Part shown: positions 29,692-46,775 of the stretch, one piece after another
Layout: each line of letters starts with the position of its first letter
Position numbering within the stretch: position 1 is the stretch's first letter
NCBI RefSeq assembly: GCF_019968765.1
Contig: NZ_CP074149.1
Coordinates: forward strand, 2,914,001 to 2,978,000
Length of the DNA stretch: 64,000 nt
Source of the DNA: Enterobacter sp. JBIWA008
GTDB lineage: Bacteria > Pseudomonadota > Gammaproteobacteria > Enterobacterales > Enterobacteriaceae
Direction: 5' to 3'
The notes under the pieces: model-generated
Database searches by the model: none
Told to the model about the DNA's origin: nothing
What the model saw: only the letters and a program-made list of their open reading frames with translations
Translations under genes and position numbers: made by a program

Positions 29692-31293
29692 TCAGGATAC
29701 AACTGGCACGGCCTGCGACCGCCCGACTTCTGTTACTGCTTCAACGTGCTCTTTCACATTAAATACCGCGACCAGTCCGGTCAGACGATCCGCCTGGCTG
29801 GCCAGCTGATCGGTTGCCGCTGCCGCTTCCTCAACTAACGATGCGTTCTGTTGCGTCACCTGATCCATCTGGCTGACGGCCTGGGCAACCTGCTCAATGC
29901 CGCGACGCTGTTCGTCCGACGCCGAGGCAATCTCGCCCATGATGTCGTTAACCCGCGTGACGGAGGTGACGATCTCGAGCATGGTTTTCGCCGCCGTATC
30001 CACCAGCGTTGAGCCCTGCTGAACGCGCGAGACCGACTCTTCAATCAGTACCTTAATCTCTTTCGCCGCGTTGGCGCTGCGGCTCGCCAGGTTACGCACT
30101 TCACCCGCCACCACCGCAAACCCGCGCCCCTGTTCCCCGGCGCGCGCCGCTTCAACCGCGGCATTCAGCGCCAGAATGTTGGTCTGGAACGCGATACCGT
30201 CAATCACGCTGATGATGTCACCAATTTTCTGTGAACTGGTGGCGATCTCCTGCATGGTGCTGGCGACATGGGACGCCTGGTCACCGCCTTTCTTCGCCGT
30301 CATCGCCGCCTGTTTTGACAGGTCAGACGCCTGACGCGCGTTATCGGCGTTCTGACTCACTGTTGCGGTCAGCTGCTCCATGCTTGCCGCCGTCTGCGCC
30401 AGCGAGGCCGCCTGCTGCTCGGTGCGGGATGAGAGATCGTTGTTACCCGCCGCAATCTCTGAGATCCCGGTGTGCATGGCATAACTGCCCTGCCGCACGT
30501 CGGATACCGTTTCCCGCAGCGATCCCTGCATCGCCTTCAGGCTGGCAAAGATCGCCGAAATTTCGTTCTTGCCGAACACCGCTACCGGACGCGCCAGGTC
30601 GCCTTTCGCAATACTGTCGAAATGGCTGCTGATGATTGCCAGCGGCTGCACAATCATTCTGCGCGACCAGAGCAGCGCGGCGCCGGTCAGCAACCCTGCC
30701 AGAATCACAACCACGGCAAAGATGACGCCCGACATGTGATAGCTTTGACGGCTCTGTTCACCGGCACGCTGAACGGACTGGTTAATATCCTGCTGCCACG
30801 CGTTAAAGCTGCCGTCAAACGCCGCCTGAGACGCCTGAACCGGTGCGGTCATAAAGTCCGACAGCTGGTTGTTCTCAAGCCACGTCGCCTGATGGTCCAG
30901 GTCGCTGTACCACTGCTCAAAGTTCGTCTTCATCGCGGCCTTCAGCGCTTTCTCTTTCTCGCTGTCGGCGGCCTGCGCCGTAAAGGCCTTAAACTGTGCG
31001 TCAGCCTGTTTCAGGCTGTCGCGCGCGGTCGCCATTAGCGCTTTAATGTCATCCGGCGGATAGCTCAGCGCGGTTAGGGTTCCTGCCTTGTTCAGCGCAG
31101 TGCTTGCCTGCAACAGCACGGCACGCGTTTGTGCCAGTGCGGAGCGCTGCTGATTACTCGCCTCAACTTCCTGCAAATTCTGATAGCCATCGCGAAACGC
31201 CCAAAAAGACAACCCGTTACTGCCAACCTGCAACACACCGCAAAGGATCAGAATCAAAAACAGTGTGGTCGAGATACGAATACGATTTAACAT
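29692..31293 (-). CDS. tap: Methyl-accepting chemotaxis protein Tap (dipeptide/pyrimidine sensor)
   Basis: A 533-residue inner membrane receptor: N-terminal helix, periplasmic four-helix domain, second helix near residues 190-215, HAMP, and a cytoplasmic hairpin with the invariant tip around [20 protein letters not shown]. The periplasmic domain tracks E. coli Tap rather than Tar, for example [14 protein letters not shown] and [12 protein letters not shown]. It ends PVVS without the NWETF tether, as expected for a minor receptor that relies on Tar or Tsr for efficient adaptation. The start at 31293 (MLNRIRIS) is chosen over five codons upstream. Confidence 0.9.
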
Positions 31294-31337
31294 CCACGCT
31301 CCCATCAAGCGGCAAGCAGCCGCGGTTTAATTGTCAG

Positions 31338-33005
31338 TCAAAATGTTTCCCAGTTTTCATCTTGTCCGGTCGTCGAGGTGCGCGTACGGTTTGCAGCCGG
31401 TTCAGCGGCTGGCGCGCGATACGTCGCCTGCGGGGTGACCGTGTTTCCAGCGAGTGAAGCGAGACGAAACGCCGAGACGGCCATTTTCAGACTGCTCGCC
31501 TGGGCTTCCAGGGCAGCGGCCGCCGCAGCGGACTCCTGCACCAGCGCGGCGTTTTGTTGTGTCACGCGATCCATTTCCGATACCGCCAGGGCAACCTGGT
31601 CGATACCACGACTCTGCTCATCAGACGCAGAGGCGATTTCACCCATGATGTCCGTCACGCGGGTAACGGCATTCACGATGTCATTCATGGTCTCCCCGGC
31701 GCTTTCCACCAGCACGGAGCCGGTATCCACGCGGGAGACGGAATCTTCAATCAGCGACTTGATCTCTTTTGCCGCGTTGGCGCTGCGGCTGGCCAGGTTG
31801 CGCACTTCCCCTGCCACCACGGCAAACCCGCGCCCCTGCTCTCCCGCGCGCGCCGCTTCCACGGCGGCGTTCAGCGCCAGAATGTTGGTCTGGAAGGCAA
31901 TGCCGTCGATAACGCTGATGATGTCGGCGATTTTCTTCGAGCTGTCGGCGATTTCGTGCATGGTTTTCACCACGCCATCCACCACGCGACCGCCGCGCTG
32001 CGCCGTCTCGGACGCGCTTTCCGCCAGCTGAGACGCCTGGCGGGCGTTATCGGCATTCTGCTTCACGGTCGCGGTGAGCTGCTCCATGCTGGCGGCCGTC
32101 TCTTCCAGGGCGGACGCCTGCTGCTCGGTACGGGATGAGAGATCGTTATTTCCCATCGCAATTTCGCTGGTGCCGGTGTAGATAGCCTCCGACCCGTTGC
32201 GCACGTTAGCGACGGTTTCGATTAACGAACGCTGCATATGGTCAACGCTGTTCGCCAGCTCGGTGATCTCATTGCGCCCGGAAACGGTCAGCGTTTTGGT
32301 CAGGTCACCGTCGGCAATTTCGCGAATGTGGGCAATGACGCGACCGAGAGGATTCAGCAGGATATGGCGAATGCCGTACCAGACAGCGACCAGAACAATG
32401 ACCAGCGCCAGCGCCAGCACGGCCATCTGCCATTTTGCAAAACGGTAGTCATTCTGGCTTGCGCTAAAGGCCGAGTGATAGAGATCGCCACTGGTCTTCG
32501 CGTATTCCCCCAGCGCCGCGCCGAGTGCGTTTTGCATCCCCTGCGTCGGCTGCGCGAAATAGGCGTCCATGTTGCCGCTCTCCAGGAACTGAATCAGCTC
32601 TGCAAGACCGGTATGGTAGGCATTGTATTTTTCATCGATATTCTGGCTCACCTGCTCCATGGCAGGCTGCGGGGCGATCTTTTTGAAGGCGTCGTAATGT
32701 TTAGCGGCGTCAGCAAGGGTGGCACGGGCATTTTTCAACAGATCGGTTTTCGCGCTGCTCTGCTGATTGTTGGGATCCATCATCATGCGCGCGGACGAGC
32801 GGCTCAGGTTGATACGCGTTTGCAGCATCAGATCCCACGTCGACGTGAGTTCACTCTGCTGCAGGCGGAGATCGTTCGAGGCCGCGAAGCTGTCCTGGTT
32901 CTGTTTTAATGACGAGAAAAAAAGCCCGCCGGAGATGAGCTGAAGAAGTGCGAAAATGACCAGCACCATCATGAGCATTGTGACAACGCGGATACGGTTC
33001 AACAT
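31338..33005 (-). CDS. tar: Methyl-accepting chemotaxis protein Tar (aspartate/maltose receptor)
   Basis: A 555-residue receptor. The aspartate-binding arginines R64, R69 and R73 of E. coli Tar are conserved in [19 protein letters not shown], methylation helices and the signalling tip are intact, and the C-terminal NWETF pentapeptide that recruits CheR/CheB is present. The ATG at 33005 is preferred; the upstream extension runs into the sigma-28 promoter. Normally this gene follows cheW; here the pilus operon intervenes. Maltose sensing through MalE cannot be judged from sequence alone. Confidence 0.93.
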
Positions 33006-33036
33006 ACAACACCTTCTCATAGATTTATTAACGGTG

Positions 33037-33063
33037 TTATCGGCACTGCCCACAGGAACTTTA
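33037..33063 (-). promoter_or_regulatory. Sigma-28 (FliA) promoter of tar-tap-cheRBYZ
   Basis: Minus strand TAAAGTTC-N11-GCCGATAA is a near-perfect class III flagellar promoter (consensus TAAAGTTT-N11-GCCGATAA), about 30 bp upstream of the tar ATG. It lets the meche operon be expressed independently of the inserted pilus genes. Confidence 0.93.
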
Positions 33064-33089
33064 CATTTGAGAAAGGGAAAAGCGCGGGG

Positions 33090-34052
33090 TTAAAACGCCA
33101 CGTCGACAATCAGCGTGTCGGTGTAGGTCCCGGCGGGTGGCGTGGCCTGATTGGTCAGGACTTTCGCGGTGTAGTTGTAGGTACGCAGTAAACCGTCGGT
33201 GCTGACCTGCGACGATACCGCGCTGGACCAGCGCTCGCTGCCGCTGCCGCCCCAGCGGTTACCGGTGGCTTCCTTGTAGATGTCGTAGCTCATGGCGTTG
33301 CTGCCGCTCACCATACGCCGCACGTTGTTCAGCGCGTTGGCACCGTTATTGATGCCGATGGTATACGTACTTCCTTTGGTACATGTGACGGCAATCGCCT
33401 GCGAGACCGTAGGAAAACTTTGTACCAGCGGTGCGCTGTTGAAGTTTACGTCCGGCGTGGTCATGGCGCTGCAGTCGTTGGTCACGGTCATATCTAACAG
33501 GATGCTTGTTGTCGCGGTTCCCGTCTGATTGATTGTGCAAATGCCGAGCGCGCCCACGGAGCACACGCTGTAGTTAATGCTGAAGGTTAACTGCACCTGA
33601 TATGGCCCGGCAGTGACGTTTTGCCCGGCGACGGTGCGGAAATAGAGCGGAATGTTGTACTGCTTTGACCCCAGCAACCCCAGCAGGGTATTCCCGCTCC
33701 AGGTATACGATTTACTTATCTGTACCTCGCTGCTGCTCGCGCATCCCGATAATCCGCACAGCCGGGTGGGGATAACGTCCGTGATGGCCGCATTATCCGT
33801 GCGTTTCATCGTGGCCCGGCTGCTGCCCGAAACCGATGCAGCGGTGTAGGTCAGCGTTACCGAGTCGCTTGTCAGCAGATTCAGTACGGCATCGCAGGCC
33901 ACCACCAGCGTGCCGGTGGTTTGAACTTCCCCGGTTCCGCTGAGCGCGAACGAGGTGACGCTGCCAAACGACGCATTAACCGTACTGACGGTACACGCCG
34001 CCCAGCCGCCGCCGGAGAACAGCAGCAGGATCAACAGCAGCAGGCGCGTCAT
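33090..34052 (-). CDS. Csu-type pilus tip adhesin, two spore-coat-U domains (CsuE-like)
   Basis: A 320-residue secreted protein with signal peptide MTRLLLLILLLFSGGGWAA. Two domains follow: an N-terminal adhesin-like domain with paired cysteines (about 20-180) and a C-terminal SCPU pilin domain ending GTYTDTLIVDVAF, the same ending type as the two smaller subunits in the cluster. In Acinetobacter Csu pili the corresponding CsuE caps the fibre and binds hydrophobic surfaces. The ATG at 34052 overlaps the usher stop (ATGA) and follows GGAGG. Last gene before tar, with no clear terminator between. Confidence 0.85.
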   Translation of the reverse strand: MTRLLLLILLLFSGGGWAACTVSTVNASFGSVTSFALSGTGEVQTTGTLVVACDAVLNLLTSDSVTLTYTAASVSGSSRATMKRTDNAAITDVIPTRLCGLSGCASSSEVQISKSYTWSGNTLLGLLGSKQYNIPLYFRTVAGQNVTAGPYQVQLTFSINYSVCSVGALGICTINQTGTATTSILLDMTVTNDCSAMTTPDVNFNSAPLVQSFPTVSQAIAVTCTKGSTYTIGINNGANALNNVRRMVSGSNAMSYDIYKEATGNRWGGSGSERWSSAVSSQVSTDGLLRTYNYTAKVLTNQATPPAGTYTDTLIVDVAF

Positions 34053-36432
34053 GGTTCCTCCCGGCAAACCAGCGGCCCGTAGGTTTTCAGCTTGTGCTCC
34101 GGATTAGCCCCCACCGTCAGGGTAGTCCTGCAGCGTCTCCCGTCAGGTGCTATCACCTCGAGCGGGTTAACATCGCTGAGATTCTCCAGCCAGGCGATGC
34201 CGTCATACCCCACCACCGCATTGCTGCGCGAGACGCGTCGGACCTGGCTTCCCACCGGCAGCGCCTGCCCGTGCGCATCATGCAGAATGACGCTGGCCAC
34301 CCGCTCCTGCTCCATCGGAAAATCAACCAGATAGCCGCTGTGACGCCGAATCGCGATCCGGCGTTCGGTCTCTTTCAGACGGGTATCCGCCGGCAGGTTC
34401 AGGGTATCAATCCGGTAGCTTGCCGGGTAATACGCCGACACTCCGCTGACCAGCAGGTAGCCGTTGTTATTGGTTTTACCGACGGGCTGGTTCTCATAGC
34501 TGACGGGCACGTCCGGGTGGCCGTCGGTACTGATGACCACAAACGCATCGTTGATCTTATTCGCAGCGAACAGCTCGCCGTCCATAAGCACAACGGAACC
34601 CATCGCCTCGCCCCACCAGGTCATCATGTCCCTTTCGCCATAGGCGCCGCCCTGCAGCTCAACGTTGTTGTTGCGCCAGCCCAGCGTGCCCTGCTGATAA
34701 TCGCTGGATCTGGACTGGTTGGCCCAGGCCATGTTCCAGTTGAACCCACCGTCAGAAGGCATGGAGTGGTTGTAGTTAATGCGTTGGGTACTACCGGCAT
34801 CCGGGGTGTTTTCAACGGTGACGGCAGCGCTGTCGCGCGCGCCCAGCGGCACCTGCAGCGACAGCGCGACCGTCCAGACTCCCCGCTGCCGATCCCGGCT
34901 GCCGGCCAGGTAAATGCTGCTTGCCCCCCACAGATTGCGGCTCCAGGAGAGATTAAGCAGCTCGGTTTTTTGACTGTCAAAACTCTCCACGCCGATCCAG
35001 GCCGCACCGATGTTGCCGTATCGTCCCATATTGAAGGTCAGAGAATACTGGTCCGTATTACGGCTAAAGCTGGCGATGGGCTTATCGTTTTCGTCATACA
35101 CCGTCGGCTGGTCGTAAAGGGCCAGATTGCCAAAGCCGCGGTCGCGACGCGTGTGCTGGGTGGCGACGCTAAACTCGCTGGTACTGTACTGGTACCCCCA
35201 GTTGATTTGCCCGCCCGCATCTCCGCGCATGCGGCTTTGCGAGTAAGAGGTATTCACCACGCCAAACTGGCCAAGTTTTATTACCGTCCCCGCGCCGCCC
35301 AGCGCCAGCTCCTGCGCCCCTTCCGCGTGACCCTCCAGCGTTAGCCAGTCCGTGATTCCGTAGCGATACGAGCCGCTGCCTGCGGCTGAACCGTAGTCAA
35401 AATTCTTGATACCGTAATTACGCCTCAGGCTGCCGAGCGTCACGGCGCCGTCGCTCAGCCCTTGTTTGAGCAGGTCGCTGGTGACGTAAAACGGTAGCGT
35501 GGTGCTTACCTGGCGCCCCAGCGCATCCGTTGTGACCAGTACCGCATCCCCGGCGCCGTTGATATAGGGCAGATTAGTCAGGGTGAAGGGGCCCGGCTGA
35601 AGCTGGGTAGAGCCGGAGCGATAGCCGTTGATAAAGAGATCGACCGAAGTGGGTACCGCGGCTTCCCCCGCAAACTCGGGCAGCGGCCATGTCACCAGGT
35701 CAGGACGCAGGGAGAAATCCCGTCCGACGCTTATCCCACCCATCCGCACGCTGGAGCTCCAGCTCAGGGCATCGCTGATCACATCCCCGGCGCTCCAGCT
35801 CATCGCGTCATCTTCGTTAGTGAACAGCAGGGTCGTGTCATAGCGAACATACCCTTCCTGCTGACCGTGGTTACTGGTGAAATTTTCCCGCGCGTAACCG
35901 GTGGAGGAAAACGAGCCGTTCTCGTTGAAGTAGCGGAACTCATGCCAGAGCGACGCCTGACCGCCGATATGTTCCGTGTGGTTGGTGTAGAGATCGTAAT
36001 TCAGCAGGCCCCGCGCCCGTAGTGCGGTTTGGCCTGCGCCGCTTGCGCGCTGAAAGGCGTCACGCGGGACGCGACCCAGTCGCGGGGAACGGTCAGCAGC
36101 AGGCGCTGCGCTGCGCTGTCGTACTCCACCCGAACCTGAGCAAGCGAGGAGAGATTTACCTCTCCGGTGGGAACATGCGCCGGGGGCAGCCCCGCGCGCA
36201 GCAAATCGGCGCTGGAGATAAAGAAAGCGCCTTTACGCTGCGTCACGGGCACGACCAGGCCGGTATCGTAGTGGTTGAGCACGAGAGCAAGCTGGAAAAC
36301 CGCTTCATCATTTATCGCCTGCGCCTGGGGAGGTGGCGGTAAACTGTCGTCGCCGGGCTCGGCCAGAGTCGCGGAACTGACGCATAGCAGTATCATCATC
36401 GCCGGCTTCAGTTGACGGGCGTCGACTGCCAT
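34049..36432 (-). pseudogene. Csu-type outer membrane usher, split by a one-base frameshift (CsuD-like)
   Basis: The N-terminal part (36432 to a TGA at 36001) has a signal peptide and the N-terminal periplasmic domain. The remainder, through the 24-strand barrel, plug and C-terminal domains (for example GDVISDALSWSSSVRMGG and PLVCREEP at the end), continues in the -1 frame without any other stop. The whole span is 2384 bases, one short of a multiple of three; restoring one base gives 794 residues, about normal for this usher family. The frame changes near a run of four C (plus strand) at 36009-36012; adding one base there reads GRGGLLNYDLYTN. Could be a real mutation, phase variation or a sequencing error. 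Upstream overlap with the chaperone gene is 25 bases. Confidence 0.85.
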
Positions 36433-37166
36433 TGTGCGTCCCTGGCATTAATCTGCGCGCTCATCCGCTCTGGCTGTCGAACGCCAGCGGGTATTGGCCA
36501 GCTGCGGGTGCTGCCCGGAAGGACGTAACCCAGCAATCCTTCCGCTACCGTGCGTTTCTGACCTCCCTGCTCCAGCGCCACCTGGCTCAGCCTGACGTGG
36601 ACATCCCCCCGATTTCTGACCTCCAGCGCAGGCTTTCCCTCCGCCTGCGTCACCCGCCAGCTCAGGTTTTGGGTTTCCGCCAGCGCGTGGTGCGCGCCCT
36701 CTTTGAGGGTCGGGATCCCCTGTCCATATACGAACAGAGGGATGGAGTAACGCATCTGCAATTTGAGGCCGATGGCGGGTTCGGTTTTGACATCAGGCTG
36801 GGGAATTTCATCGACGATAATGCGGTAAGCCTGTTCGACGCCTGCGGGAACCGGAGCCTGTTTGATAAGGCGAATAAGCTGCTTGCTGCCTGTGCCAATC
36901 GTGACGATCGGCGGGCTGGCGACCACGTCCTGCTGCGCGGTATAACGCTCGTGTCCGTCCTCCTGCTTCCAGCGCACGATGCGAACCTGCATCGTCGTGG
37001 CGCTGTTTCCCTGGTTCTGGATCCACAGTTCCGTGGCGTTGGCGCCCGCAGCGAGCCACGGGTCGATCGGCCAGAGCAGGATGGTGGCCGCCGCCTGCGC
37101 CTGGCCGGTGACCGCAGCCATGCCCAATGCGCCCGCCAGACAAACCGGTCTGAAAAATGGCTTCAT
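36408..37166 (-). CDS. Csu-type periplasmic pilus chaperone (CsuC-like)
   Basis: A 252-residue periplasmic chaperone of the PapD/FimC superfamily, archaic branch. Signal peptide MKPFFRPVCLAGALGMAAVTGQAQA is followed by two Ig-like domains, with the conserved LWIQNQGN, GSKQLIRLI, YRIIVDEIPQ and LRNR-type (EVRNRGDVHVRLSQV) segments. It donates a strand to SCPU subunits and delivers them to the usher. The ATG at 37166 is chosen for its GGGAG ribosome-binding site; an upstream GTG-TTG is also in frame. Confidence 0.88.
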   Translation of the reverse strand: MKPFFRPVCLAGALGMAAVTGQAQAAATILLWPIDPWLAAGANATELWIQNQGNSATTMQVRIVRWKQEDGHERYTAQQDVVASPPIVTIGTGSKQLIRLIKQAPVPAGVEQAYRIIVDEIPQPDVKTEPAIGLKLQMRYSIPLFVYGQGIPTLKEGAHHALAETQNLSWRVTQAEGKPALEVRNRGDVHVRLSQVALEQGGQKRTVAEGLLGYVLPGSTRSWPIPAGVRQPERMSAQINARDAQWQSTPVN

Positions 37167-37182
37167 CAACACTCTCCCTTTA

Positions 37183-37731
37183 TTACCATGACAAGGTCAC
37201 GGTGAGCTGATCGGAATAGGTTCCCGCCGGACTAAAACCGGTCAGTAGCGCCACGCCAAAAAGCGGCAGCGCGATGTTGTTGCTGTTGGTATAGGTCACC
37301 GCGATCGCCTGGTTGACGCCAATTTCGCTGTTCGCGGCCAGCGAGCTGCTGCTGTAGAGCCGGTATGGCACCACGTCGGCGCCGTTCGAGCGTTTCATCC
37401 GGCGAACGGATGAGTAATTTTGACCGCCATTAATGCTCATGCTCAGCGCCACGCCCGGCGTACAGGCGATAGACAACGCCCCGTTTGGCACAAAGCTGGT
37501 GCTGACCGGCGCGCTCTCGACGCCGTTATGGGTGCCAAAATCCAGCGTACCGAGAAGCCCTCCGCTACCGGTTGCCACGGCGCATCCCGGTACAATCGTC
37601 GCGCTGACCTTAAACGACTGGGATGTCACCGCCCCCGCCGTGGGCATCATCAGCAATCCGACGATCAGCGCGAAAAAAGGCTGCACGCGTCCCTCTGCGC
37701 GTTTGCGCAGACCTGTGAGAGATGCCTTCAT
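37183..37731 (-). CDS. Spore-coat-U-domain pilus subunit 2 (Csu minor pilin-like)
   Basis: A 182-residue secreted SCPU protein. After an unusually basic N-terminus (MKASLTGLRKRAEGR) comes a hydrophobic signal core ending near TAGAV. The mature part has the first-strand cysteine (VPGCAV), TLDFGTHNG, the paired cysteine (SIACTPG), the VRRMKRS loop and the ending AGTYSDQLTVTLSW. A linking or minor subunit between major pilin and tip is my inference from its place in the operon. Spacing to the first pilin gene is 12 bp. Confidence 0.85.
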   Translation of the reverse strand: MKASLTGLRKRAEGRVQPFFALIVGLLMMPTAGAVTSQSFKVSATIVPGCAVATGSGGLLGTLDFGTHNGVESAPVSTSFVPNGALSIACTPGVALSMSINGGQNYSSVRRMKRSNGADVVPYRLYSSSSLAANSEIGVNQAIAVTYTNSNNIALPLFGVALLTGFSPAGTYSDQLTVTLSW

Positions 37732-37743
37732 GGCGGTTCGGGA

Positions 37744-38316
37744 CTAATAGGTAACGCTGACGTTAATCGTGTCGGTGTAGGTTCCCGGGACGACCGTCAC
37801 GCTGTTACCGCCGCCGGTAATCCGTCCGTAGAGGGTGTAACTGTCCACCCCACCCGCCGTGGACGCGATCGGCAGCGCGGCGTTATTGGCAATCACGGTG
37901 TTAAACCCGCTGTCGCTGTACAGGCTGTAAGCCACGCCCTGTGCCGCGTTGGCCGTATTAACCAGATAGCGCGCAGGGGTGCCCGGCGTGCCGACAACAG
38001 TGCCGGGGGCCGTGGAGTTGGTGTTGCCGACGATCGCCACCGTATAGCTGGCGGTCGTACATTGAATGGTGAAGGTGTTTCCGCCGCTGGCGCCGCTCAG
38101 CTGCGTCGTAAGCGTGGAAAAGGTTGCCGGATGGGTACCGAAATCGAGCGTACCGAAGTTAATGCCACTTTGCGCGGGCGAGCCGTTTATCAGACACCCG
38201 TTTGTCAGCGTCAGGGTCGCGCCGATGGTGCCGCTGCTGGTGACGGCCAGCGCCTGATGCGCCGTTGTCGCAGCCAGTAATGTGCCTGTGCAGATCAAAA
38301 GAAGTTTTCTTTTCAT
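37744..38316 (-). CDS. Spore-coat-U-domain major pilin (CsuA/B-like)
   Basis: First gene of the pilus operon: 190 residues with a clear signal peptide (MKRKLLLICTGTLLAATTAHQALA). One SCPU domain is visible: LTNGCLING and TIQCTTAS cysteines, INFGTLDFGTH, and the ending PGTYTDTINVSVTY. Archaic chaperone-usher major pilins look like this and polymerise by donor-strand exchange. Its promoter should be in the AT-rich region up to 38747, shared with the divergent symporter. I saw no phase-variable invertible element there. Confidence 0.86.
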   Translation of the reverse strand: MKRKLLLICTGTLLAATTAHQALAVTSSGTIGATLTLTNGCLINGSPAQSGINFGTLDFGTHPATFSTLTTQLSGASGGNTFTIQCTTASYTVAIVGNTNSTAPGTVVGTPGTPARYLVNTANAAQGVAYSLYSDSGFNTVIANNAALPIASTAGGVDSYTLYGRITGGGNSVTVVPGTYTDTINVSVTY

Positions 38317-38746
38317 TTACCACCCTCCAGAAGACGTCTCCGTTCCCTTGCCACATTTTATTTTTGCTGTTCAAGATGTTAGCCCCGCTTAAGGTTCCTC
38401 TGAGGGGGGTTATTGAGAATTTAGTTTACGGATATCTCTTCGACCACCTGACCCTAAACGCATAAGCTATATGTCTTATTGACTAAATTTTACTATAAAT
38501 AACAGTGAGTTAAATTAATTCAGGCAGCGATTTTATTATATTTTGGGAGAATATATCTATTAAAGTGTGACAGCGATCACAATATATCGTCAGCGCATTA
38601 ACAACAAAATTAATAAAACTTAAAAAGGAGTTGTATCCCCCTACACTTTGCGTCAATTTATGTGCCGAATAATTTCTCGCATCGTAATAAAAAATTTATA
38701 TGTATCGACGCGGGCTACATCTGAAGCGCATAGAGGGTCTTTTTTC
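38317..38746. other. AT-rich divergent promoter region between pilus operon and symporter
   Basis: 430 bp without a credible gene. It is markedly more AT-rich than its flanks, which suits silencing by H-NS (inference). It holds a perfect CRP site at 38566-38581 closer to the symporter; no sigma-28 site was seen for the pilus genes. Confidence 0.7.
38566..38581. promoter_or_regulatory. CRP site upstream of the dicarboxylate/amino acid symporter
   Basis: TGTGACAGCGATCACA has both perfect half-sites TGTGA and TCACA with six-base spacing. It lies 173 bp from the symporter GTG and 257 bp from the first pilin ATG, so either gene could be the target; carbon-source transporters are the usual one. 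Confidence 0.75.
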
Positions 38747-40012
38747 GTGGCAAGTGCAAACAAACTCACACTCTTCATCGTGATATTCATGCTGGCGGGT
38801 ATTCTTTCAGGGGCTGCAATTCATGAGTATGCATCTGCGGATGCCATCAAAGCCTGGTCGGATAATATTACCCTTCTGACCGATATTTTCCTCCGTCTGA
38901 TCAAAATGGTCATTGCACCGTTGGTCTTCAGCACGCTCACCGTCGGCATTATGAAGCTGGGCGAAACCTCCACCATTGGCCGCGTTGGCGGCAAAGCGAT
39001 GGTGTGGTTTATCAGTTCATCCGTACTCTCTATTCTGGTCGGACTGTTCATCGTCACGCTGGAGCATCCGGGAAGCGGTCTGAACCTGACGGTCCCGACA
39101 GAAGCGGTGGATACCGGCCTGGCCGTTGGCGGCATGACGCTGAAAGCGTTCCTCTCGCACACCATCCCAACCAGCATTGCAGGGGCGATGTCGAACAATG
39201 AGATCCTGCAGATTGTGGTGTTCTCAATGTTCTTCGGCATCGGCGGCGCGTCGCTGGGGCAGAAATTCAACGCGCCGCTGGTGGCCGCGCTGGATGTCGT
39301 TTCCCATATCATGCTGAAGGTAACGGGTTATGTGATGTACGTTGCTCCGCTGGCCATTTTCGCAGCGATTTCATCCGTCATTGCCACGCAGGGTCTGGGC
39401 ATTCTGCTTAACTACGCCTCCTTTATTGGCGGTTACTATGTTGCCATTCTTCTTACCTGCATGGTGCTGCTGGCCGTGGGTTACATGGTACTGAAAAAAG
39501 AGGTGTTTCGCCTGGTCAGCATGCTGAAAGATCCTGTCCTGGTGGCGTTTACCACCAGCAGCTCTGAAGCCGCCTACCCTAAAACGCTGGAGCAGCTGGA
39601 GCGCTTTGGCTGCTCGCGCAACATCGCCTCTTTCGTTCTGCCGATTGGCTACTCCTTCAACCTGGTGGGTTCGATGGTGTACTGCTCTTTCGCTTCGATG
39701 TTTATCGCTCAGGCGTACAACATTCACCTGAGCTTCTCTGAGGTGACGGTGCTGATGCTGACCCTGATGCTTGCGTCGAAAGGGATTGCGGGCGTACCGC
39801 GTTCTTCACTGGTGGTGCTGGCAGCAACCATTCCGAGCTTTAATATTCCGGTGGCGGGTATTCTGCTGCTGATGGGGATCGACCATTTCCTGGACATGGG
39901 CCGTTCCGCAATTAACGTGCTGGGGAATGGGATCGCGACCGCGATGCTGTCACAGAATGAAGGCGCACGGGAAGCAGAAGCAGAAGCGGAGCTGGTAAAG
40001 CAGGAAGCGTAA
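38747..40012 (+). CDS. Dicarboxylate/amino acid:cation symporter (DAACS family), GTG start
   Basis: A 421-residue membrane transporter of the GltP/DctA superfamily, importing dicarboxylates or acidic amino acids with protons or sodium. Family marks are FTTSSSEAAYPKTLEQLE (HP1, serine-rich), NLVGSMVYCSFASMFIAQ (TM7) and DHFLDMGRSAINVLGN (TM8). I prefer the GTG at 38747 (ASANKLTLFIV) with an AGAGGG site nine bases upstream. An ATG at 38648 would add 33 residues unlike any family N-terminus. The substrate cannot be told from sequence. It sits inside the split chemotaxis cluster, converging with cheW. Confidence 0.88.
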   Translation: MASANKLTLFIVIFMLAGILSGAAIHEYASADAIKAWSDNITLLTDIFLRLIKMVIAPLVFSTLTVGIMKLGETSTIGRVGGKAMVWFISSSVLSILVGLFIVTLEHPGSGLNLTVPTEAVDTGLAVGGMTLKAFLSHTIPTSIAGAMSNNEILQIVVFSMFFGIGGASLGQKFNAPLVAALDVVSHIMLKVTGYVMYVAPLAIFAAISSVIATQGLGILLNYASFIGGYYVAILLTCMVLLAVGYMVLKKEVFRLVSMLKDPVLVAFTTSSSEAAYPKTLEQLERFGCSRNIASFVLPIGYSFNLVGSMVYCSFASMFIAQAYNIHLSFSEVTVLMLTLMLASKGIAGVPRSSLVVLAATIPSFNIPVAGILLLMGIDHFLDMGRSAINVLGNGIATAMLSQNEGAREAEAEAELVKQEA

Positions 40013-40022
40013 GGTGAAAAAA

Positions 40023-40068
40023 GGGTGAGGCCTGATGCCCTCACCCAGCCTTCTCCCACAGGGAGAGG
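40023..40068. repeat. Short intergenic palindrome (REP-like), copy 2
   Basis: Two small stems in tandem: GGGTGAGG/CCTCACCC and CTCCC/GGGAG. It shares CTGATGCCCTC and the GGGAGAGGG arm with the element at 7275-7307. Located between the symporter stop and the bidirectional terminator. Confidence 0.55.
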
Positions 40069-40080
40069 GAGCAAATACAA

Positions 40081-40106
40081 AAAACGGCAACCTGGGTTGC
40101 CGTTTT
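40081..40106. terminator. Terminator between symporter and cheW
   Basis: The eleven-base-pair stem AAAACGGCAAC/GTTGCCGTTTT has T-rich flanks on both strands and lies 9 bp past the cheW stop. It ends the motA-cheW operon and probably the symporter transcript. Confidence 0.88.
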
Positions 40107-40114
40107 GCATTTAC

Positions 40115-40618
40115 CTAGGCTACGTGACTCGCGGCGATATCCAGCAGCGCCATCTCATCGCTGTTCAGCAGCTTCTCAATGTTCACCAGAATCAGCATAC
40201 GCTCGCCGAGCGCGCCCAGACCGGTCAGGTATTCGGTCGACAGCGTGACCGCAAACTCCGGCGCAGGACGAATTTGGTCAGAGGTCAGGGAAAGCACATC
40301 AGATACGCCATCCACCACGATACCTACCACGCGCTGCCCCAGATTGAGGACGATCACCACGGTGTTGTCGTCATAGTCAACGTCGCCCTGGCTGAACTTC
40401 ACGCGCAGGTCCACGATTGGCACAATGACGCCACGCAGGTTGGTGACACCTTTAATAAAAGCAGGCGTGTTAGCGATGCGGGTAACCTGGTCGTAACCAC
40501 GGATTTCCTGCACTTTCAGGATATCGATGCCGTACTCCTCATCGCCTAAAGTGAATACCAGGAATTCCTGCCCTGATGGCTCGCCCGCCAGTTTCGTTAC
40601 ATTACTCATACCGGTCAT
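40115..40618 (-). CDS. cheW: Chemotaxis coupling protein CheW
   Basis: A 167-residue adaptor linking receptors to CheA, almost identical to the enteric protein ([34 protein letters not shown]). Last gene of motA-motB-cheA-cheW; in E. coli tar follows directly, but here a terminator and the insert follow. Confidence 0.97.
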
Positions 40619-40637
40619 GTTATTACCTTCTACTTAA

Positions 40638-42677
40638 TCAGGCGGCTGTGTACGCCACACGTTGTTCACGATTTAATCCCTGAAGCGCCGACACATCGAC
40701 GATCAGCGCCACGCTACCATCACCCAGAATGGTGGCGGCAGAAATACCCGGCACTTTGCGGTAGTTGCTTTCGAGGTTCTTCACTACCACCTGGTGCTGA
40801 CCAATCAGCTGATCGACCAGCAGCGCATAGCGGCGGCCTGCGCTTTGCAGGATCACAACGATGCCCTGCGTGGCCTCCGTCTTCGCCCCGTCCACTTCGA
40901 ACACTTTCCACAGTTCCACCAGCGGCAGATATTCGCCACGCACTTCGAGCACGCGCTCGCCGCCGGCCAGCGGATGCAGATCTTCTTCACGCGGCTGCAG
41001 GGATTCCATTACGGCGTTCAGCGGCAGGATAAAGACTTCGTCCGCCACTTTGACCGACATGCCGTCGAGGATCGCCAGCGTCAGCGGCAGCAGGATGCGA
41101 ATGGTGGTGCCGGAACCCTGTTTAGACTTGATCTCAACGTGGCCGCCCATCTCCTGAATGTTACGTTTCACGACGTCCATGCCCACACCGCGTCCGGACA
41201 CGTCGGTCACCTGCTCGGCGGTAGAGAAGCCCGGCGCGAAGATCAGCATGCCCACTTCTTCGTCGGTCATGTTTTCATTGACCGCCATTCCCTGCGAAAT
41301 CGCTTTTGCCAGGATACGCTCGCGGTTAAGACCCGCGCCGTCATCTGTCACTTCGATACAGATGTTCCCGCCCTGGTGTTCCGCTGAGAGGATCAGATTT
41401 CCGACCGGGGATTTTCCAGCGGCAATGCGGTTTTCCGGCAGTTCGATACCGTGGTCGAGGCTGTTACGCACCAGGTGCGTTAACGGGTCAATGATGCGCT
41501 CGATCAGGCTCTTATCCAGTTCGGTTGAGCTGCCCATCAGGGTCAGTTCAATCTGTTTATTCAGCTTGCTGGCAAGGTCGCGGACCAGACGCGGGAAGCG
41601 GCTGAAGACATATTCCATCGGCATCATACGGATGGACATGACCGATTCCTGCAGGTCGCGGGCGTTACGCTGCAGCTGGCCCATGCTGGTAATCAGATCG
41701 CCGTGCGTGACCGGGTCCAGTTCGTTAGAACGTTGCGCCAGCATCGACTGCGTGATGACCAGTTCCCCCACCAGGTTAATCAGCTGGTCGACCTTCTCAA
41801 CCGCAACGCGAATACTGGTTGACTCGCTGGCGCGCGCGGCAGGTTTCTCACCACGTCCACCAGGTGCCGCGGCCTCTTTTGGCACGGCCTTCAGCGCCGG
41901 GGCCGCAGGTGCCACTGCCGGCGCGGCGGCCTGAGCGACAACGGCCACCTCTTCCGCAGCGGCAGGCGCGTCAACCTCAGCCGTTTCGGTTTCGAAGGCG
42001 ATCTGGTCAGCTTCAATCACAAAGCACAGTACCGCCACGATATCGTCCTGGCCAATACCGTCATCAAGCGTCGCGGCAAGGCTGTCTTTGCCTTTTACCA
42101 CGTTACTTAACTTCGCCAGGTTGCCCAGCTCTTCTTCCAGCAGGTTAACTTCATTCTCTTTGAGGCGCGACAGCACAACGCGCAGTTTGCCCGCTTGTGC
42201 CGCGGCTGGTGCGGCCTCTTCGGCTGCAACCGCATCGACAACGCTCAGTTTCGCCGCGGGGACAACGGCTGCAGCGACTTCACCTTTTGCTTCCAGGGCG
42301 AGCTGGCGCAGCGCATTGCAGATGTATTCAAAGCTGGCGGCATCAGGCTCTGCCGAGCTTTTATAGGCGTCGAGCTGTTCCTGCATAATATCTTTGGTTT
42401 CCAAAAACAGGTTGATAATGTCGGTATTGAGCTGCATCTCACCGCGTCGTGCTTCATCAAGCAGGTTTTCCATTAAATGGGTCGTTTCCTGCAGGATGGT
42501 AAATCCAAACGTTCCGGCTCCGCCTTTAATAGAGTGCGCCGCACGGAAGATGGCATTGAGCTGCTCGGAGTCCGGTGCTTCGGGCACCAAATCGAGCAAG
42601 TGTTGCTCCATATCGGCCAACAATTCGTCGGCTTCATCAAAGAATGTTTGGTAAAAATCGCTAATATCCATGCTCAC
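40638..42677 (-). CDS. cheA: Chemotaxis histidine kinase CheA (GTG start)
   Basis: Autophosphorylates and passes phosphate to CheY and CheB. Counting from the GTG at 42677 used in E. coli, the product is 679 residues with the phosphorylated His at 48 ([12 protein letters not shown]). Domains in order are P1 HPt, P2 CheY/CheB docking (~160-230), an Ala/Pro-rich linker, P3 dimerisation, P4 ATPase ([33 protein letters not shown]) and P5 CheW-like. It is about 25 residues longer than E. coli CheA, because of the expanded Ala/Pro linkers around P2. Confidence 0.97.
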
Positions 42678-42681
42678 GCTA

Positions 42682-43611
42682 TCACCTCGGATTGGCTGGT
42701 GGCGATGTTGGAACGGCAGCCGAAGGAACGGCCCCAGGCTGTTTTAAATCGTCCAGTGACTCATTCTGACTTTCGGCGTTTTCATGCAGGATGGCCTGCT
42801 CCGCCTGCTGGTTCAGCACTAAAAGACTGATACGACGGTTGATGGCATCATCCGGCCCGCGGTCGGAAACGCGCATGGTTGCCGCCATGCCGACTACGCG
42901 CAGTACCTTGCCATCGTCAAGCCCACCTACCACCAGCTCGCGACGCGAGGCGTTGGCACGATCGGCAGAAAGCTCCCAGTTGCTGTATCCCTTCTCCCCA
43001 CTGGCGTACGGGAAATCATCCGTGTGTCCTGACAGGCTGATTCGGTTAGGAATGCCGTTCAGCACCGGTGCAATAGCACGCAGAATGTCGCGCATGTACG
43101 GTTCGACTTCCGCACTCCCGGTTTTAAACATTGGGCGATTCTGGCTGTCAATAATCTGAATACGCAGCCCTTCCTGCACCAGGTCGATCTTCAGATGCGG
43201 GCGCAGCGCGCGCAGTTTCGGATCTGCTTCAATCAGCTGATCGAGATCGCCACGCAGTTTCTTCAGACGCGCCTGCTCCATCTTTCTTTTCAGCTCGTCG
43301 ATGTTCGGCTCTTTTTTCACCTCACCCTTCTGCTGGGTGTAATCATCGCCGCCGCCCGGGATCGGGCTGTCGCTGTTAGAGATACGCGGCCCACCGGCCA
43401 CCGCCGTTGCCAGCGGCGTTCGGAAATATTCGGCAATCTGGATCAGTTCTTTTGGGCTGGAGATGGAGATCAGCCACATCACCAGAAAGAACGCCATCAT
43501 TGCGGTCATAAAGTCGGCGTACGCAATTTTCCACGAGCCGTGCGCGCCATGCCCGCCGCCCTTGTGCTTGCGTTTTTTTACGATGACGATCGGATGGGAC
43601 TGGTTTTTCAT
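42682..43611 (-). CDS. motB: Flagellar stator protein MotB
   Basis: A 309-residue stator subunit anchored to peptidoglycan. A single transmembrane segment carries the essential proton-binding Asp33 ([19 protein letters not shown]), preceded by a basic cytoplasmic tail and followed by the plug and an OmpA-like domain ([20 protein letters not shown]). Overlaps motA by four bases. Confidence 0.97.
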
Positions 43612-44495
43612 GCGTCCTCAGTCGTCGTCTGTTGGTTTGGGTTTTTCACCGCGCGCACGTGTTCTTCAAGCTCGATAAACGACGGACGCTCGCTGGAGTA
43701 AAGCGTTTTACGGCCAAACTCAACCGCGATCGGTGGCGCGTAACCGTTGAGGTTAGAGAGCAGCGTGATCTTCACGCACTGCATCATTTTGGTGGTTTCA
43801 GCGCTCTTCTGGCGCAGAACGCTTGCCAGCGGTGAGATGAAGCCGTACGCCAGCAAAATACCAAGGAAAGTTCCCACCATCGCGTGGGCAATCAGCGCGC
43901 CCAGCTCGGCTGCCGGACGGTCTGCCGACGCCAGAGCGTGAACCACCCCCATCACCGCAGCAACGATACCGAATGCCGGAAGCGAGTCGCCGACCAGCGC
44001 CAGGCTGTTGGCCGGCACTTCAGATTCGCTTTCGTGGGTTTCGATCTCTTCGTCCATCAGCGCTTCGATTTCGAAGGTATTCATGTTGCCGCTGATGATC
44101 AGTCGCAGGTAGTCGACGATGAAATCCAGCATCATGGCGTCAGCAAGAATTCGCGGATAGCTGGCAAAAATTTCGCTCTCTTTAGGGTTTTCAATATCCC
44201 GTTCAAGCGAGAACATGCCCTGCTGACGCGACTTCGCCATCAGGCGATAGAGCAGTGCCAGCAGATCCATATACATGCTTTTGGTGTATTTCGAGCGACG
44301 GAACAGCAACGGAATCGCTTTCAGCGTGCCCTTGATCGATTTACCGTTGTTACCAACGATAAAAGCCCCTACCCCTGCACCGCCGATGATAATAAGTTCA
44401 GCCGGTTGATAGAGTGCTCCAAGGTGCCCGCCGGTCATCATGTAACCGCCGAAAACTGTACCGAGAACTACCAGGTAACCTAATAAGATAAGCAC
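43608..44495 (-). CDS. motA: Flagellar stator protein MotA
   Basis: A 295-residue proton-channel subunit with four membrane helices and a large cytoplasmic loop that contacts FliG ([21 protein letters not shown], carrying the conserved Arg and Glu). [16 protein letters not shown] contains the conserved proline of helix three. First gene of the operon. I did not find a sigma-28 site in the 123 bp between it and flhC. Confidence 0.97.
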
Positions 44496-44562
44496 GACAT
44501 CATCCTTCCGCTAGTGACTATGGCAAGGACGTCCAGCTCACAGCGTTTACCGTTTGCGGGGT

Positions 44563-44594
44563 AAAAAAAAGCAGCGGTAATTGCTTACCGCTGC
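44563..44594 (-). terminator. Terminator downstream of flhDC
   Basis: On the minus strand the stem GCAGCGGTAA/TTACCGCTGC with a four-base loop is followed by TTTTTTTT. Confidence 0.9.
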
Positions 44595-44618
44595 TGGAAT
44601 CTTTCCCACACGTTCGGG

Positions 44619-45197
44619 TTAAACAGCTTGTTCGATCTGTTCATCCAGCAGTTGTGGAATAATATCGGCAGCATCCCGGGAAAGTTTACGTCTTTTTACT
44701 GCGCGGGATGGAGGCTGACATAAACTACAGGCGAAGCTGCCTGCAGGTTGATGAGCATGGGTAATAAAATTGCCGTCGCAGCAGTTGCAGCGCGACAGTT
44801 CAAGCATTCCGCTCTCAACAAAACGCACCAGCGTCCATGCGCGGGTCAGCGCCAGCAGAGGGCCTTCTTCCTGCTGTGGGCATTGTTCAAGGTAAAGTTT
44901 GTACGCTTTGATCACGGCGTCAACGCCGCTACACAAACCGGTTTTAAGCAGATACTGCCAGGCATTACAGAACATGGAAGCATGAATATTCTGCTCCCAC
45001 GTCATAAACCAGTCGGTAGAAAACGGCAGCATGCCTTTCGGCGGGGGACTACCACGTAACTCTTTGTATAGTTTGATGAGACGACCACGGCTCAGCTGAG
45101 TCTCGCTTTCCAGCATTTGTAAACGAGCACCCAGTGTAATTAGCTCCATGGCCAACTGTATGTCACGCGCTTCCTGAACAATGCTTTTCTCGCTCAT
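44619..45197 (-). CDS. flhC: Flagellar master regulator FlhC
   Basis: A 192-residue partner of FlhD in the FlhD4C2 activator of class II flagellar genes. The zinc-binding cysteines are in [10 protein letters not shown] and FACSLCQPP. Starts 2 bp after the flhD stop. Confidence 0.97.
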
Positions 45198-45199
45198 AG

Positions 45200-45550
45200 C
45201 TAGGCCCTTTTCTTACGGGCTGCGTCATCAGGCTGGCTGATTTCGTTAAGCAAGCGAGTGGAAAGAAGAATACCGGTATGGATCTGTTGAAGATCGTCCA
45301 CACGGGACTCCTGCGTCAGACGCGTTATTGTCTGTGAATCATCGAAACGGAACTGGCAAACCAGTTGATTCGTTTCAGCCAGTTTAACCATCTGCGGAAG
45401 GGTTAAGCCGCCCAGCATGGTTGCCATCTCTTCGTTAATACCCAGACGAAACATCGCGGACGCCTTGTCCTGACTAATCAAACGCTGCGCGAGCAGTAAA
45501 TACGACAAGTTGATGTCATAGATATGTTTTAGCAACTCGGATGTATGCAT
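45200..45550 (-). CDS. flhD: Flagellar master regulator FlhD
   Basis: A 116-residue subunit of the FlhDC activator, beginning [20 protein letters not shown]. Three further upstream codons are in frame but lack a better ribosome-binding site, and 45550 matches the known start. Transcription is likely CRP-dependent, from the conserved site 283 bp upstream, with a leader of about 200 bases, as in E. coli. Confidence 0.96.
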
Positions 45551-46346
45551 TTTTCCCATCCCGAATAACCAACTATTATTTTTATGCGGAAAGACCGCAC
45601 CCCGTGATGTCGCCGGGAAATCACCCGGTATAAAAAAAAGAAAAGGCTAAATGCATAGTTGAATTTAGGTTTCTATTCACTGAAACCGTAAGAGAGAAAC
45701 CGCGAACGCGTCTCTTACATGTTTTATCATTTCTTACAAATAACTAAGATTTTTCCTAATTCGACGCAAACTCTACTCGTCAGTTTTCCCACATACAATC
45801 CAGCCACCCTCAAATTTAAAAAAAATGTGATCTACGTCACACAATTTGAGTGAATATGACCCATAAATCCATCAGTATGACTTGTAATTTGCTCAAAATT
45901 TGGCCATTCAAGACTGTTTTGTATTCTTAATTGACGAATACTCATGCAGACGGATGATTCAAACTGGCATGCAACGTGCTTTTCCTGCCGTAAGCGCCTC
46001 GCGGAAACATTTACAACCTCCCCCTCTACGAGAAACATTTTTCTTACCGTGAAAAAACATATAGTTATGCAGACAGCTCAAAAAAGATGTTTCAGGACGT
46101 GATCATTCGAAATGAGTTTGTAACCTATCAAAACGATTTAACAGTCAAAGCATGAATTTGTGTGATTTACGTTAAGTTGTTAATTTTTTTCATTTAGACG
46201 CATTTTTCAGTTATTCTTCTTATAAGAATAATTAATGAATAATTATGATAAGCTTCACACTAATGTCGTAATCAGCTCTTGCAGAAGCAGGAATTTCGCG
46301 GTAAAGGTGGTTAAACGCTGTCTTTAAGACACCTAAGGAGTGCGCC
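45551..46346. other. Long flhDC/uspC divergent regulatory region
   Basis: About 800 bp, AT-rich, with no credible gene; a 68-codon frame at 45832-46038 has no homology I recognise. It contains the flhDC promoter and leader with a perfect CRP site. In E. coli this region collects many regulators (CRP, H-NS, OmpR, RcsAB) and is a hot spot for insertion sequences; none is present here. Confidence 0.8.
45826..45841. promoter_or_regulatory. CRP site of the flhDC promoter
   Basis: TGTGATCTACGTCACA has both consensus half-sites. Its distance from the flhD ATG, 283 bp, is close to that of the E. coli CRP site that activates flhDC. Confidence 0.88.
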
Positions 46347-46775
46347 ATGAGTTACTCCCATCTTCTTGTTTCCGTTGCAGTTTCCCCTGAAAGTCATCAG
46401 CTCGTCGCACGGGCAGTTTCCATTGCCAGGCCCCACAATGCCCGCATCAGCCTTATCACGCTCGCCGCAGAGCCAGAGATGTATAATCAGCTGGCGGCCC
46501 CCATGCTGGAGGATATTCGTGAGGTTCTGCAGGAAGAAACGCAGCAATTTCTGGGCGAATTAGTGGAAAAGGCACAATATCCCATTTACGAAACTGTTAT
46601 TGCGACCGGGGAACTTAACGCCCATATTCTCGATATGTGTCGTAAACAAGATATTGATTTAGTAATTTGCGGGAACCATAACCACAGCTTTTTATCGCGC
46701 GCAGCCTGTGCGGCGAAAGCTATTGTCGCGTCGAGCCAGGTCGATGTGCTGTTAGTGCCGCTTGGGGGGCATTAA
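46347..46775 (+). CDS. uspC: Universal stress protein UspC
   Basis: A 142-residue cytoplasmic UspA-fold protein (MSYSHLLVSVAVSPES, DLVICGNHNHSFLSRA, VDVLLVPLGGH). It is linked to stress resistance and, with UspE, to motility in E. coli (established knowledge). AAGGAG precedes the ATG. The stop codon lies in the loop of a GC hairpin. Confidence 0.93.
   Translation: MSYSHLLVSVAVSPESHQLVARAVSIARPHNARISLITLAAEPEMYNQLAAPMLEDIREVLQEETQQFLGELVEKAQYPIYETVIATGELNAHILDMCRKQDIDLVICGNHNHSFLSRAACAAKAIVASSQVDVLLVPLGGH

Follow-up and report, generated by a model that had tools for sequence, protein, structure and literature searches.

An archaic pilus operon between cheW and tar, probably ancestral in the core Enterobacteriaceae and repeatedly lost

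Introduction

The closest described relatives of the pilus considered here are Sdc (Sas) of Salmonella arizonae, the Csu pili of Acinetobacter baumannii and the CupE pili of Pseudomonas aeruginosa. The operon under study lies, together with a symporter gene, between the chemotaxis genes cheW and tar of Enterobacter sp. JBIWA008 (genome G000, 5.08 Mb in five contigs), within a stretch of 64,000 nucleotides (G000:C1:2914001-2978000) that is hereafter called the window and whose numbering is used throughout. Like Csu, this pilus combines SCPU subunits with a CsuE-like tip adhesin (6fjy, E=4.3e-24), and its first subunit matches the structure 8cio (E=5.8e-14), which we take to be CupE. Csu clusters, unlike the pilus in the window, are not known to neighbour chemotaxis genes, and CupE differs from it in neighbourhood and in the number of subunit genes. 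Escherichia coli K-12 shares the order of flhDC, motAB-cheAW and tar with the window, where about 7 kb separate cheW from tar as against 144 nucleotides in K-12.

In Salmonella arizonae (locus L048), SCPU subunits, a chaperone, an usher and an SCPU adhesin are likewise located between cheW and tar, the pieces being 48-72% identical to those of the window. According to passages of three papers (PMC3373541, PMC9238391, PMC7886704), Salmonella enterica subsp. arizonae has Sdc as its only sigma fimbria, and the L048 operon is therefore presumably sdc. Horizontal acquisition of the arizonae sdc operon was inferred in passages of PMC3373541 and PMC9238391, whose main texts contain neither "cheW" nor "chemotaxis"; a term search of PMC10797944 returned nothing on this locus. 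Among the literature matches listed, no title named a pilus between cheW and tar, and a phrase search gave 0 papers, which is not proof of its being unpublished.

In contrast to the published view of sdc, position, trees and deletion scars point here to inheritance and loss. It is quite probable that an archaic pilus operon is ancestral at the cheW-tar junction, has been inherited vertically and repeatedly deleted, and has its own promoter, with read-through into tar possible. Judged by sequence, the pilus appears to be of a known kind (archaic, Csu/CupE-like, with SCPU subunits) in an apparently unremarked ancestral position.

Distribution of the pilus operon at the cheW-tar junction

Thirteen pieces of the window were mapped onto the best 80 of 424 stretches with CheW relatives from named species; as only the best 80 were kept, the set leans toward close kin. 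The pilus occupied the cheW-tar slot in 48 of the 76 classifiable loci, with 26 loci carrying symporter and pilus, 22 the pilus only, 13 the symporter only and 15 neither in full. The four unclassifiable loci were L018, L030 and L057, which end soon after cheW, and L025, in which RHS-/VgrG-like genes follow cheW; L026 was counted though a contig end cuts inside its chaperone gene. Going by record titles, carriers were found in Enterobacter, Lelliottia, Leclercia, Silvania, Huaxiibacter, Pseudenterobacter, Kosakonia, Phytobacter, Pseudescherichia and Superficieibacter, and additionally in Siccibacter, Franconibacter, Atlantibacter, Intestinirhabdus, some Citrobacter and Salmonella arizonae. Within the 30-row clade of Enterobacter, Lelliottia and Leclercia, every classifiable locus had the pilus (L018, L025 and L057 being the unclassifiable ones). 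A preliminary description of the window had the operon splitting a conserved cheW-tar junction. The placement itself stands, and the insert is largely genus-wide and most likely old; the direction of change was wrong, since the slot occupied in 48 of 76 loci, the trees, the scars and an Escherichia copy make the insert most likely the older state.

A second view of the distribution came from 198 genomes sampled evenly from the GTDB family. An usher was detected at E<=1e-100 in 50 of them and cheW at E<=1e-65 in 106. Ushers of at least 67% identity occurred in 25 genomes (G000 included, G301 as a fragment), 24 of them within about 7 kb of cheW; in the remaining one, G201, the contig bearing cheW matches the short record L030. 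The other 25 genomes had ushers of at most 65% identity, none within 8 kb of cheW on the same contig: 10 were on the cheW contig (the nearest about 50 kb away, in G233), 14 on a different contig, of a draft assembly or of a second replicon, and one (G063) in a genome without cheW at the cut-off. Usher and cheW coordinates were compared by hand, and the identity step from 67 to 65% is narrow.

Other arrangements were also observed at this junction. An autotransporter is present in Citrobacter youngae (L044:10858-14352), a porin in Kluyvera ascorbata (L078:11153-12427) and RHS-/VgrG-like genes in Lelliottia sp. V86_10 (L025:11327-20260). In Phytobacter ursingii (L060:10885-13986), two subunit-like genes and a 404-residue protein without a Pfam match occupy the operon position, and in Superficieibacter electus (L074:15414-18114) tap follows the adhesin with no tar match in between.

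Agreement of the pilus and chemotaxis trees

Quick trees were built from the concatenated pilus proteins and from CheA, CheW, MotB, MotA and FlhC for 48 taxa (the window and 47 loci, L026 being excluded). The pilus and chemotaxis trees have 28 of 45 splits in common, as against at most three in 1000 label shuffles. Support of at least 95 in the SH-like approximate likelihood ratio test (SH-aLRT) was reached by 28 and 22 splits in the two trees, with no conflict among them. The chemotaxis tree places the proteins of the window nearest to those of Enterobacter vonholyi and E. asburiae. Minimum state changes on the chemotaxis tree of the loci with and without the pilus numbered nine for the pilus and five for the symporter, so that the two look like separate modules.

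Adhesin remnants in junctions without the pilus

A profile of the last 180 nucleotides of 47 adhesin genes was searched against the cheW-tar interval of K-12 and 28 others that lack a full pilus. Matches at E<=5e-4, with 13.4-100 bits, were obtained in five Kosakonia loci (L045, L052, L053, L056 and L065) and in Phytobacter ursingii (L060), the best of 20 shuffles per interval scoring 8.2 bits. Atlantibacter RC6 (L085) reached 9.0 bits in this profile. Its direct comparison with L077 recovered an adhesin piece of 79 nucleotides (score 88; 1000 shuffles at most 29) and a separate adhesin tail (score 59; 200 shuffles at most 25). In the junction of Salmonella diarizonae (L036), 22 of 33 bases agree with the arizonae adhesin tail when the two are aligned on the tar promoter, the highest agreement among 20,468 places. 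Of four usher-less Salmonella-genus genomes compared in this register, two stood above background: L094, by coordinates the L036 record (22/33; 19 elsewhere), and L093 (21/33; 19 elsewhere). Some symporter-only Citrobacter loci gave matches to the sequence upstream of the pilus genes (best E 4e-5), which may belong to the symporter.

The pilus operon in Escherichia and Salmonella

Among 12 genomes of inferred Escherichia (G246 matching L086 by coordinates), one, G307, carries the usher, 80% identical to that of Citrobacter amalonaticus. Its stretch reads cheA, cheW, five pilus genes, tar, cheR and cheB, and the adhesin stop codon lies one base from the sigma-28 -35 box. The C. amalonaticus usher had no blastn match in 5,426 E. 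coli genomes. In passages of Yue et al. (PMC3373541), Escherichia fergusonii is one of the species said to have a close relative of the sdc usher, and our guess is that G307 belongs to that species. Within the genus Salmonella, the pilus was present in one of five genomes, the arizonae copy. Together with the G307 copy, this makes loss in the E. coli line the simplest reading.

Organization of the locus in the window

The minus strand carries, in order, cheA, cheW, two SCPU subunits, a chaperone, an usher, a two-domain SCPU adhesin and tar, and cheW is separated from the pilus genes by a plus-strand reading frame of 454 codons for an SDF symporter. The gene order and strands of the preliminary description were borne out by open reading frames and Pfam matches. 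The labels tap, cheR, cheB, motA, motB, flhC and flhD were assigned by order and length against the K-12 annotation where covered. The cheW gene (40115..40618, minus strand) matches PF01584 (E=8.6e-39). The symporter of the SDF (DAACS) family (38648..40012, plus strand; PF00375, E=3.8e-100) is convergent with cheW and divergent from the pilus genes. Its true start is probably near 38747, as many relatives align over the last 93% alone, and it stays below the NCBIfam curated cut-offs (305 of 513 bits for DctA, 297 of 638 bits for GltP).

The pilus genes, all on the minus strand, begin with SCPU subunit 1 (37744..38316, PF05229) and subunit 2 (37183..37731; PF05229, E=2.8e-26), followed by the periplasmic chaperone (36408..37172; PF00345, E=2.1e-19). 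An N-terminal usher piece (36001..36432), which has no Pfam match when taken alone and whose frame ends early, precedes the remainder of the usher in another frame (34049..35803; PF00577, PF13953). The last gene encodes the two-domain CsuE-like tip adhesin (33090..34067), with PF05229 in two stretches. Several features of sigma-clade (archaic) pili are present: PF05229 over its cut-off in three proteins, PF00345 for the chaperone and PF00577/PF13953 for the usher over theirs, and a CsuE-related adhesin with two SCPU stretches. The tar gene (31338..33005, minus strand) is above the NF011622 cut-off, and ATG 33005 is preferred over GTG 33053 as its start.

The "five pilus genes" of the preliminary description are present, with the usher broken near 36.0 kb into two open reading frames (36432-36001 and 35803-34049) in different frames. 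With this frameshift in the assembly, the pilus is probably not made, unless it is a sequencing error. An error of sequencing or assembly in an intact pilus operon is a serious possibility, if not the one we favour. A single open frame runs across both usher pieces in 46 of 47 relatives, so intact copies of the operon exist, and the remaining pilus genes of the window are all open. The sole exception, L034, has several split matches, tar included, and may be an error-rich assembly; the chaperone match is split in two other relatives, L040 and L088. Against an error stands the quality of the genome, rated 100% complete with a contamination of 0.05, a rating that is silent on single bases. Two further SCPU match sites were identified in this genome (G000:C1:654601-658940, and G000:C4:51771-56230 on a smaller contig), so that even with this usher lost the strain may retain other archaic pili.

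Near and upstream of flhD, G+C dips to about 0.40-0.45 at 45000-46500. Several genomes of the same genus have a second CheW elsewhere, 63-69% identical to the first, for example G025:C1:2883445-2883909, which is about 80 kb from the first on the same contig.

Upstream region of the pilus genes

A CRP-type site (38566..38581, minus strand) and a conserved TAAACTAAATT element (38418..38428, minus strand) lie upstream of the first pilus gene. The CRP consensus used was TGTGA-N6-TCACA. Across the 48 sequences, the site occurs before the first pilus gene with no mismatch in 26, one in 20 and two in 2; of 960 mononucleotide shuffles, 11 reached one mismatch and none zero. It starts 241-265 nucleotides before the ATG in 45 of 48 sequences (198 in L068 and L069, 365 in L074) and is present also in loci without the symporter. 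The TAAACTAAATT element has no mismatch in 33 sequences, one in 12 and two in 3, and is perhaps part of the pilus promoter. The promoter pattern gave 0 sites elsewhere in the genome, a result that is uninformative, since the pattern misses the window's own variant. A conserved leader RNA with a CCCC/GGGG hairpin, seen by eye, was dropped after 26 aligned leaders yielded a consensus with 0 pairs, and no Rfam match was found in 31000-46500 at E<=1.

The tar promoter and the adhesin-tar junction

The adhesin stop (33090) and the tar ATG (33005) are separated by 84 nucleotides. The sigma-28 promoter TAAAGTTC-N11-GCCGATAA lies in this gap (33063-33037, minus strand) and agrees with the sigma-28 (FliA) consensus used, TAAAGTTT-N11-GCCGATAA, at 15 of 16 positions. 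Across the 48 sequences, at least 15 of 16 positions agree before tar in every one, and Escherichia loci have TAAAGTTT...GCCGATAA before tar. The near-perfect sigma-28 promoter, the terminator after cheW and the lack of a clear terminator between adhesin and tar, all claimed in the preliminary description, were recovered. Two terminator-like hairpins lie 3' of cheW (together 40023..40106, minus strand; 40106-40081 and 40046-40023), the second with a free energy (dG) of -16.9 kcal/mol, and the scan of the window found none between the adhesin stop and the tar ATG. The regional scan gave 16 hairpin sites as against 10.5 in shuffles, which makes single sites weak evidence.

Three regions of each locus were compared: the adhesin-tar gap with 20 nucleotides of the adhesin end, the 100 nucleotides after cheW, and the flhC-motA gap. 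A terminator was defined as a hairpin of at least five pairs with a T-rich tail and dG<=-9. Such sites were found at the adhesin-tar junction in 2 of 48 loci (L067 and L071), after cheW in 35 of 48 and between flhC and motA in all 47 measured, with 3, 9 and 6 respectively in one Markov shuffle each. At dG<=-6 the counts were 4, 35 and 47, and those of the shuffles 8, 14 and 4. Terminators at the adhesin-tar junction are thus at chance level, neither kept nor gained there. The flhC boundary, which also has a co-directional flagellar operon downstream, has a terminator in every measured locus. The adhesin-tar gap is 80-109 nucleotides long in 44 of 48 sequences, and a block preceding the -35 box, which many pilus-less loci have too, takes up part of it; the short gap and this block may leave little room for a terminator. 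A terminator-poor gap fits a functional link and also simple tolerance.

Discussion

A sigma-type (Csu/CupE-like) pilus operon would have stood at cheW-tar since the ancestor of the core Enterobacteriaceae (Enterobacter to Siccibacter, Citrobacter, Salmonella and Escherichia), passed on vertically and then lost repeatedly by deletion, and the symporter would be a separate module with gains and losses of its own. The same slot in 48 of 76 loci, the tree agreement, the scars and the G307 copy make the E. coli-type junction most likely the result of a deletion. A recent horizontal transfer into a conserved junction, splitting it as the preliminary description had it and as the published view of sdc implies, would account for the patchy presence in Salmonella (one of five) and Escherichia (one of 12), and an autotransporter, a porin or RHS/VgrG-like genes sit at the junction in some species. 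It is very improbable in view of the identical site, order and orientation across many genera, the tree agreement and the scars in several empty sites. That the junction does take other cargo could also suggest an insertion hot spot with repeated independent acquisition of the pilus. The ushers of at least 67% identity are at cheW and the lower ones are not (with the step from 67 to 65% narrow), and the trees show no supported conflict, so that we give this explanation as little credence. If the L048 operon is sdc, the data favour inheritance, and the published horizontal origin of the arizonae operon is doubtful.

Several observations weigh against ancestry and deletion as set out here. Support is weak at deep nodes of the 81-row chemotaxis tree, so that a few early transfers may have occurred, and the minimum of nine changes does not by itself set polarity. 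The adhesin tail of Salmonella diarizonae (L036) fell short of significance in the profile search (4.5 bits, against 8.2 for a shuffle) and in a free local alignment, whose score 20 of 200 shuffles reached. Two of the four usher-less Salmonella-genus genomes, L096 (19/33; 20 elsewhere) and L092 (9/33; 19 elsewhere), showed no scar above background in the same-register comparison. The profile search gave no adhesin match in the E. coli, Escherichia, Trabulsiella and Yokenella junctions or in the 13 symporter-only loci, and an E. coli scar just upstream of the sigma-28 promoter was searched for and not established. As to transcription, the CRP-type site is about 150 bp from TAAACTAAATT, a non-standard activating distance, and where the symporter is present the site could serve it. 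The terminator scan detects intrinsic terminators alone, and the 48 sequences come from related species and are not independent.

Under vertical inheritance with repeated loss, the pilus would be transcribed from its own upstream region with the conserved CRP-type site, and tar would keep its sigma-28 promoter. As the adhesin end lacks an intrinsic terminator, RNA polymerase may run on into tar; with an active pilus promoter, some of it would continue into tar and the genes downstream. CRP control, such read-through and any behavioural effect are what we infer from these elements. The read-through toward tar proposed in the preliminary description stands as a possibility and is strengthened, the gap being without a terminator in 46 of 48 sequences at dG<=-9 and 44 of 48 at -6 and the cheW and flhC ends mostly having one; its setting as a local, new split did not hold.

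Read-through into tar appears possible and old, and an absence of functional coupling is the likelier outcome. We lean toward the latter: termination by Rho, a weak pilus promoter or read-through negligible beside the sigma-28 promoter would leave the linkage as an inherited position. The tar promoter matches at least 15 of 16 positions in all 48 sequences, the pilus operon has been lost repeatedly while both chemotaxis operons persist, and adhesin-tar terminators are at chance rather than depleted (2 vs 3 of 48 in shuffles at -9, 4 vs 8 at -6). On the other hand, the other boundaries of the block mostly have intrinsic terminators, and none evolved here in most lineages. An open junction kept as a link, through which CRP-driven pilus messages would continue across tar and the downstream genes for receptors and adaptation and, in cells that build the attachment pilus, raise receptors and adaptation enzymes relative to CheA and CheW independently of FliA, is a tentative proposal and rather unlikely. 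Were it true, deletion of the pilus would have cost E. coli and most Salmonella a pilus-receptor link. A coupling of the pilus to receptor dosage is a reasonable hypothesis, better supported than before but short of a result.

The probably ancestral position of the operon questions the inferred horizontal origin of the arizonae sdc operon and supplies traceable deletion scars. Intact, scarred and empty junctions form a natural series for testing a transcriptional linkage of attachment and chemotaxis. The textbook layout of E. coli chemotaxis genes would then be a stripped-down form of an older, pilus-bearing one.

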